Origin: Candidatus Pelethocola excrementipullorum
GTDB lineage: Bacteria > Bacillota > Clostridia > Lachnospirales > Lachnospiraceae
Assembly: GCA_018714325.1 (NCBI GenBank)
Contig: DVNN01000164.1
Coordinates: forward strand, 1 to 36,066
Direction: 5' to 3'
Length of the DNA: 36,066 bases
The translations under genes were made by a program, and so were the position numbers. Shown piece by piece: positions 10,597 through 31,938 of the stretch; position 1 is the stretch's first letter, and each line of letters begins with the position of its first letter. Below the pieces are notes generated by a model. The model was not told the origin of the DNA. It saw only the letters and a program-made list of their open reading frames with translations, and did not search any database.

Positions 10597-11364
10597 ATGA
10601 AACGATCATCAAAAGAATTCAAGACAGAAGCCCGTGAGGCTTTGATTGGAAATTATGGTACGTATATTGGCTCTTATCTAATCTATACATTGATAAGTGT
10701 GGTAATCAATTTGTTTCTATACTGGTATCTATTGATTTCTAATTCCGAGTTAATAGCTATTACAGGACTTATCATCTCCTTTTTATTTGGCGTACTTACG
10801 AATTTAATAAAGGTCGGTCTAAGAAAAACCGCCCTGTCTATCAGCCGCCACCAGCCAATCAGAATCGGCGACCTGTTTTACGGCTTAACTCATCACCCAG
10901 ACCGTTTTCTGGTGGTGGAAATTATTATGGGACTTGTCTATGGACTATTCACCTACCTTCCTATTTTCTTTTACTCTAATTATAGGTTATCGAACTTGGT
11001 GACAGAATTTAATGTCTTTCGTCCGACACCAGAGGACATCGTTGCTTTTGCATTTAGCTATACAGCGGTTATCTTATTGATTGTAGCTGCTGGTGTCCTC
11101 ATAGCCTCTTTGCTGATGATGCCATTCGCCCTGTCCGTCTATCTTCTGATAGATAATCAGGAACTTTCATCCATAGCTGCCTTAAAAGAAAGTGCACGTA
11201 TGATGAGAGGGAATATGGGCCGCTACTTTTATCTGAGTTATCTGAGCTTTTTGGGATACTATTGCCTGGGATATTTAGGATCCTTTATTCCATTACTTTG
11301 GATTTATCCATATAAGGAAGTGGCATTATCCAATTTTTATCGGGAACTCAAACAGGAAATATAA
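10597..11364 (+). CDS. DUF975 family integral membrane protein
   Basis: MKRSSKEFKTEAREALIGNYGTYIGSYLI N-terminus and several TM segments; typical DUF975 start. Confidence 0.8.
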   Translation: MKRSSKEFKTEAREALIGNYGTYIGSYLIYTLISVVINLFLYWYLLISNSELIAITGLIISFLFGVLTNLIKVGLRKTALSISRHQPIRIGDLFYGLTHHPDRFLVVEIIMGLVYGLFTYLPIFFYSNYRLSNLVTEFNVFRPTPEDIVAFAFSYTAVILLIVAAGVLIASLLMMPFALSVYLLIDNQELSSIAALKESARMMRGNMGRYFYLSYLSFLGYYCLGYLGSFIPLLWIYPYKEVALSNFYRELKQEI

Positions 11365-25598: not shown

Positions 25599-26066
25599 TC
25601 AAGGATTTGTGTTGTTGGTAGTTCCATTTCCGTTGGTTGTGCCATTGTTGGTTGTGGTATTGTTATTTGTAGTACCATCGTTATTAACACCATCACCAAT
25701 GTCCTGGACTCCCTGGCCCAAATCTTCAATTCCCTCACCGACACCATCAACTACATCATTAACACCATTACCGAGATCATCTCCTACGGTATTGTTATCG
25801 TTATTCATGTTTGTGTTGCCATTATTATTGTTGTCTGTGCCATTGTTATTGGTGCCATTGTTATTGTTGTTGGTTCCATTGTTTTTGTTGTCTGTACCAT
25901 TGTTTTTGTTGTCTGTGCCATTATCATTGTTGATGCCATCGTCTGTTGTTGTATTGTTGTTTGTGCCATCAGTAGCATCATTGTTTAAGCTTCCACATGC
26001 AGTAAGGCCAGTCAGCATCATAACCATCAGACAGCCGAATAATATTTTTTTCATTTGCTTCATCAT
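25599..26066 (-). CDS. Secreted lipoprotein with Asn/Thr/Gly/Asp-rich imperfect repeats
   Basis: Signal peptide and lipobox LTAC (MKKILFGCLMVMMLTGLTACGS), then GTDNKNN-GTDNKNN-GTNNNNN repeats. Confidence 0.75.
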   Translation of the reverse strand: MMKQMKKILFGCLMVMMLTGLTACGSLNNDATDGTNNNTTTDDGINNDNGTDNKNNGTDNKNNGTNNNNNGTNNNGTDNNNNGNTNMNNDNNTVGDDLGNGVNDVVDGVGEGIEDLGQGVQDIGDGVNNDGTTNNNTTTNNGTTNGNGTTNNTNP

Positions 26067-31167: not shown

Positions 31168-31185
31168 ATGGTTTTAAATGATGAT

Positions 31186-31332
31186 GATGATACCAGGGGC
31201 AAAAGATCATGCTTTTCATGCTTGCATGAAAAAGTATGAGTTTGGGGCCGCAAAACATGAGAAAGTAGCCCGAAAAGGGCGGATTTCAAATGTTTCTAGG
31301 GTGCTGAGTGCCAGTGGCACTCGTTTAGCACC
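31186..31332. repeat. Cluster of three consecutive hairpins (REP-like composite element)
   Basis: Hairpins 31208-31238 (CATGCTTTTCATG/CATGAAAAAGTATG), 31253-31295 (AAACAT..GCCCgaaaaGGGC..ATGTTT), 31300-31332 (GGTGCT-GAGTGCCAGTGGCACTC-AGCACC), preceded by GATGATACCAGGG shared with the element upstream of typA. Confidence 0.6.
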
Positions 31333-31852
31333 GACCGAAGCGGAGCGAAGATGTGGGAGCACTTTTGTGCCGCCCTTCTTGATTATGGTATTCCTGGCTC
31401 CAGTGACTGACCACTTTTATCAAAAGTTTCTGCAGGCTTTCTCTTTCCTCATTACTTAGCATGTCAAATAACTCCTCTTCACTCAACCTGCACTTATGCT
31501 CATGCTTGTTATGGTGGCCGTGATTGTAATTGATGCCATGATCTAAGTCGTGATCGTGCCCATGTCCATAATTTTGATGGTGCCCGTGATGATGCTTGCC
31601 TTTATGTCTATGAGGCCCATCCCCTCTACTCTTTCCGGTTTTTAGCTTCAAGATATAAGCGCATTTCATAAACAGATGCGCCAAATCAGGATTCTCTCCT
31701 TCCGGTCTGCCATGTCCTACACCGCCATTTTCCAGATGTTCTTCACCTGAAAAAAATCTTCTTCCTTTTCCACATTGTAATGCATCCCTTGCACATTCAT
31801 TCGGACACAGTGTACATACTTCTTTATTATTATTTGTATTATCATCTGCCAT
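31325..31852 (-). CDS. His-rich, Cys-motif protein; possible MarR-derived metal-binding protein lacking the winged helix
   Basis: CTLCPNECARDALQCGKGRRFF; His-rich PHRHKGKHHHGHHQNYGHGHDHDLDHGINYNHGHHNKHEHKC; C-terminal helix LSEEELFDMLSNEERESLQKLLIKVVSHW; RBS AAGGAGG before ATG. Confidence 0.75.
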   Translation of the reverse strand: MADDNTNNNKEVCTLCPNECARDALQCGKGRRFFSGEEHLENGGVGHGRPEGENPDLAHLFMKCAYILKLKTGKSRGDGPHRHKGKHHHGHHQNYGHGHDHDLDHGINYNHGHHNKHEHKCRLSEEELFDMLSNEERESLQKLLIKVVSHWSQEYHNQEGRHKSAPTSSLRFGRC

Positions 31853-31874: not shown

Positions 31875-31938
31875 ATAGTTAGGTACCTTAATTATTATAT
31901 TAATGCATCTTCGCCTTTTTGTCAAGGTACCTAACTAT
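31875..31938 (-). promoter_or_regulatory. Sigma-A promoter bracketed by paired operator-like inverted repeats
   Basis: ATAGTTAGGTACCTT (31875-31889) and AAGGTACCTAACTAT (31924-31938) are perfect 15-nt inverse copies; between them on the minus strand TTGACA-N17-TAATAT. Confidence 0.8.

Follow-up and report, generated by a model that had tools for sequence, protein, structure and literature searches.

In the 36,066-nt stretch of Candidatus Pelethocola excrementipullorum DNA analysed here (the window), a promoter on the minus strand is bracketed by two inverted copies of one sequence, and the gene behind it encodes a histidine-rich protein. Which regulator reads the two sites, and what kind of gene do they control? 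An earlier note on this DNA took the His-rich gene to be a target of a MarR-type regulator. The main new finding, which that note missed, is that the gene itself is a relative of the MarR repressors that lacks their DNA-binding domain (a "headless" MarR relative), standing behind an intact MarR-type promoter.

The bracketed promoter and its conservation

The two operators are the exact inverse 15-mers ATAGTTAGGTACCTT (31875-31889) and AAGGTACCTAACTAT (31924-31938), 34 nt apart. On the minus strand, the promoter consists of a -35 box TTGACA (31920-31925), which is conserved in relatives, and a -10 box TAATAT (31897-31902) at a 17-bp spacing. These arms, coordinates, spacing and promoter boxes had all been described in the earlier note, and re-reading of the sequence found them exact. 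The upstream operator (relative to the minus-strand gene) has its GGTACC core at 31926-31931 and abuts the -35 box, with which its arm shares two bases. The core of the downstream operator (31882-31887) begins 9 nt past the -10 box, so that this operator covers the probable transcription start. The sites had also been called nearly palindromic, which holds around GGTACC and fails further out: the palindromy is confined to the core AGGTACCT, and the outer flanks are asymmetric. The sequence AGTTAGGTACCT occurs twice in the whole 3.9-Mb genome, both times at this promoter. A pattern search of the genome found no copy of the extended symmetric site AGTTAGNNNNCTAACT, and the fully symmetric site is therefore not used in this genome.

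Inverted 15-mer pairs at distances of 10-100 bp appeared in none of 300 shuffles of the window, and in none of 5000 shuffles of the 201-nt intergenic region (73% AT). The window has other exact inverted 15-mer pairs, beginning at 11357, 18047, 20017, 22772 and 31119, which resemble terminator hairpins. Given those other pairs, statistical surprise alone is no proof of an operator; conservation is.

Conservation was assessed by searching 397 Lachnospiraceae genomes for the pattern GGTACCTTGACA-N16-40-GGTACC, with the reversed pattern as a control. The pattern gave 17 distinct sites in 17 of the genomes, the window included, and the reversed control gave no site in the same 397. Besides the window, one site is at the end of a contig, another precedes a gene that is cut short by a contig end (its start resembles a known relative), and 14 are readable. 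At all 14 of these, the first downstream gene encodes a MarR regulator whose winged helix is, by alignment, intact, and at nine an ABC-exporter-like gene comes next (a domain check covered one of the pattern-site loci and the two exporter genes of contig C44, discussed below). The same bracketed promoter also stands before a four-cysteine, His-rich MarR gene in a record of Fusobacterium mortiferum (L121), outside the Lachnospiraceae, which suggests either transfer or deep ancestry. With the same pair before marR in every readable case and in Fusobacterium, the proposal of the earlier note that dimeric MarR-type operators surround this promoter is supported. The arrangement GGTACC-TTGACA-N17-(-10)-GGTACC that typifies the four-cysteine MarR subfamily is found in the window, and the assignment of the window pair as an autoregulatory-type operator pair of this subfamily is well supported by the comparison.

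How would a repressor act at such a promoter? In the relatives, the first GGTACC is always in contact with the -35 box, the -10 box lies 17 bp from the -35 in most cases, and the second GGTACC falls 3-16 bp past the -10. Core-to-core distances of 38, 40, 43, 44, 45, 46 and 51 bp follow no helical period. Looping or phased dimer-dimer contact, which the earlier note had raised, was set aside on the strength of these unphased distances and the mostly constant 17-bp spacer, since simple occlusion is enough. As judged from the layout, the promoter is one of autoregulation by occlusion, not looping: whichever GGTACC site a MarR dimer occupied, it would block RNA polymerase, one site lying at the -35 box and the other over the start.

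Parts of this design are familiar. Autoregulated MarR efflux repressors (PF01047) likewise have operators that are palindromic and lie at or within the promoter, and, as with most relatives of the window gene, an exporter after marR. The window gene differs from them in having neither a winged helix-turn-helix nor an exporter after it; other contigs encode the exporter and the intact MarR. NadR, a MarR repressor of Neisseria meningitidis, also uses separated operators within one promoter, one of them overlapping the -10 box and the start (PMC2791445). The spaced NadR operators, however, lie on both sides of a repeat tract and IHF plays a part, whereas the sites in the window flank the core promoter and are unphased (PMC2791445). 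Searches of the literature found nothing on point for GGTACC-operator MarR proteins, Cys-rich MarR proteins or truncated MarR antirepressors. From the Lachnospiraceae into Fusobacterium, the GGTACC-bracketed promoter identifies a repressor family whose operator code can be read, so that its regulons should be predictable from sequence. On the genomes compared, a MarR repressor family with this switch before its own gene is widespread in gut bacteria.

A headless relative of the MarR repressors

The gene behind the promoter (31325-31852, minus strand) encodes 175 aa and has an AAGGAGG ribosome-binding site just upstream. Pfam and NCBIfam searches gave nothing significant for its product, including no Pfam match at E<=1; a nickel/cobalt-transporter match was rejected as weak (E 0.2) and confined to the His-rich stretch. 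Tested on three full-length relatives, the Pfam MarR models match each of them (E 1e-13 to 1e-15), but they do not match the window protein, in which neither form of the family's winged helix-turn-helix (PF01047/PF12802) is found. The relationship emerges from other comparisons. In 149 other genomes of the family, the sole match at E<=0.001 is a full-length MarR whose gene carries the same promoter, and the two proteins align over a common four-cysteine N-terminus, the first helix and the C-terminal helices, the DNA-binding domain being absent from the window protein. A profile built from 18 relatives gives the window protein 35.0 bits and the best of 2000 shuffled copies 7.8. The profile match omits positions 72-133 (about 62 positions), which correspond to the winged helix-turn-helix, and the C-terminal dimerisation helices match with 33 bits.

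The protein can thus be read part by part on the minus strand. At its N-terminus (31751-31819) is the motif C-x2-C-x3-C-x6-C followed by GKGRRFF; the four cysteines are invariant in eight aligned members, although the motif is missing from some members of the GGTACC-operator group. An equivalent of MarR helix alpha-1 follows (31640-31687), placed by both sequence alignment and a structure model, in a region with 9 of 24 residues identical to the MarR encoded on contig C367, a paralogue discussed below. In place of the winged helix-turn-helix of the relatives there is a stretch of 42 aa with 16 histidines (31496-31621), predicted to be disordered, and then an equivalent of helices alpha-5/alpha-6 (31400-31483), 13/28 identical to the C367 paralogue. 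Predicted helices occupy the positions of both the N- and C-terminal dimerisation helices of the MarR family. Confidence in the structure model is low overall (mean pLDDT 62, pTM 0.42) and good for the helices alone, helix 1 and the C-terminal helix being well predicted. The last ~15 codons and the stop are supplied by an interspersed repeat of ~198 nt (31173-31370). Copies of this repeat, 93-99% identical and some of them partial, are present on seven other contigs.

On these alignments, the headless gene descends from such a marR; the four-cysteine N-terminus and the dimerisation helices remain, and the winged helix has been lost. Without it, the protein cannot bind the window operators as its relatives do, and it is probably no longer a repressor. 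The view of the His-rich gene in the earlier note is thereby revised: the MarR-type operators stand, while the gene is no unrelated target. No close relative of it was found in five genomes of the same genus, and plasmids gave no match. A search of genome contigs with the window protein found no relative, and one with a full-length relative found three loci only.

An intact paralogue and a candidate regulon

If the headless protein cannot use the operators, what could? In this genome, the MarR on C367 is clearly the closest paralogue of the full-length protein of G124 (Faecalicatena contorta ET51), with E 2.5e-35 (next best, 5e-8). Its promoter, read from the sequence as TTGACA-N17-TATTAT, is followed by AAGGTACCTAAA, with GGTACC just past the -10 box, and the GGTACC site is conserved at the corresponding gene of a same-genus genome (L170). 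On C44, AAGGTACCTTGACA lies in the promoter that serves a pair of ABC exporter genes. A genome scan for the motif, which the earlier note had suggested as a check, thus places the GGTACC core at two other promoters, against the possibility raised there that the motif would be found near none. Each of the remaining nine WAGGTACCTT sites falls within an ORF, which is shorter than 90 codons for the one on C73 and has 90 codons or more for the other eight; the scan was by patterns only, so that weaker sites may be missed.

The simplest reading of the sites and the paralogy is that the C367 MarR, the C44 exporter and the headless gene would form a small regulon. What would have preserved the window operators is their use by another MarR, most likely the C367 paralogue, which has the same site at its own promoter. 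The C367 MarR is without the four-cysteine motif, and it and the headless protein may therefore sense different things.

Possible roles of the headless protein

Taken together, we give a probability of roughly 0.6 to the reading in which a C367-type MarR represses the headless gene, and the product works by dimerising, by binding metal or by both, possibly as an antirepressor. In such a scheme, a signal might release the C367 MarR, so that the headless protein is made. Considering that the dimerisation helices are kept and the DNA-binding domain is lost, the protein might then pair with C367 subunits through the common helices into inactive heterodimers, as reported for TrlR; its cysteine and histidine content suggests that it might also, or instead, bind metal. 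Derepression could in this way be amplified across the regulon, including the C44 exporter. The antirepressor step is one that we infer from these retained parts, and metal control of the promoter system is possible given the Cys and His motifs; in short, the headless product may interfere with an intact repressor encoded elsewhere in the genome.

There are precedents for such interference. As described in an excerpt of PMC11655674, the LuxR homologues TrlR in Agrobacterium and CerN in Cereibacter, which are without the HTH, antagonise the full-length regulators TraR and CerM, TrlR by forming inactive heterodimers with TraR. The present genome has the same ingredients, a homologue without its DNA-binding domain and, on C367, an intact resident paralogue. 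The differences are that those proteins are LuxR-type and their antagonism is supported by experiment, whereas here the family is MarR and antagonism is inferred; the excerpt also describes neither a His-rich insert nor a bracketed promoter, both of which the window has (PMC11655674).

ArmR offers a second comparison, with a different architecture. ArmR, a short peptide, is not known to be homologous to MarR proteins, and its gene is controlled by NalC, not by the repressor that ArmR blocks. According to an excerpt of PMC3290565, it is a small antirepressor of MexR, a MarR repressor that controls an efflux pump, and in this it resembles the headless protein as proposed. If the headless protein does act on the intact paralogue, it would be a MarR counterpart of TrlR/CerN, of which none was found in the literature searched.

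Headless proteins similar to that of the window are, by their domain make-up, present in other genera. A profile of the N-terminal part found three further cases, G048, G319 and G348, and Pfam finds a winged helix-turn-helix in none of them. G048 (136 aa) has the four-cysteine motif and the C-terminal dimerisation helices, with an intervening stretch that may be helix 1, and is followed by an ABC-exporter-like gene. G319 is 79 aa long, has an internal in-frame deletion and is also followed by an exporter. In G348, the same parts are fused to a metallophosphoesterase domain. A bolder and distinctly tentative version of our reading is that a class of headless MarR proteins has arisen more than once in the Lachnospiraceae, the DNA-binding domain being deleted or replaced by a His-rich stretch, and that the window member is a metal-responsive antirepressor under C367 control, forming inactive heterodimers in a positive-feedback switch for the ABC exporter regulon.

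Could the gene instead be a marR in decay, recently broken and with its frame open by chance, its winged helix-turn-helix lost, its His stretch a neutral expansion and its promoter a functionless leftover of autoregulation? G319 looks like just such a case, since a similar in-frame loss is accompanied there by decay of the operator to GGCGCC; moreover, searches of five same-genus genomes did not find the window gene, and a repeat has come to occupy its 3' end. What sets the window gene apart from G319 is that both of its operators are still perfect despite the loss of the DNA-binding domain. An open frame of 175 codons with a ribosome-binding site, the conservation of the dimerisation parts and all four cysteines, and the retention of the same parts in G048, G319 and G348 likewise make decay the less likely reading, though a real alternative.

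It is also doubtful that the product is simply a metal-binding effector, that is, a Cys/His chelator or chaperone within a metal or stress regulon, placed under MarR control and outside regulation itself. Sixteen histidines in 42 residues and four conserved cysteines would suit that role, His-rich stretches occur in many relatives, and in L148 and L149 the four cysteines occur in short His-rich ORFs that contain no MarR part. A simple chelator would have no need of dimerisation helices, however, and no recognised metal gene was found in the regulon. The inverted pair is very unlikely to be no more than a hairpin or a chance repeat, for although the window has other perfect inverted 15-mers, probably terminators, this pair sits around a promoter with a 17-bp spacer, and its layout recurs in 16 other genomes with no match for the reversed pattern.

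Several minor observations accompany these results. The motif C-x2-C-x3-C-x6-C without MarR is found among L148, L149, L157, L158 and L159, which include short His-rich ORFs, a metallophosphoesterase fusion and membrane proteins; L158 has two copies in a membrane-protein context. At L138/L046 (G033), a MarR domain is preceded by an HGERGG-type repeat of roughly 200 residues. Within the window, a lipoprotein-like ORF (25599-26066) consists nearly entirely of Asn/Gly/Thr/Asp repeats.
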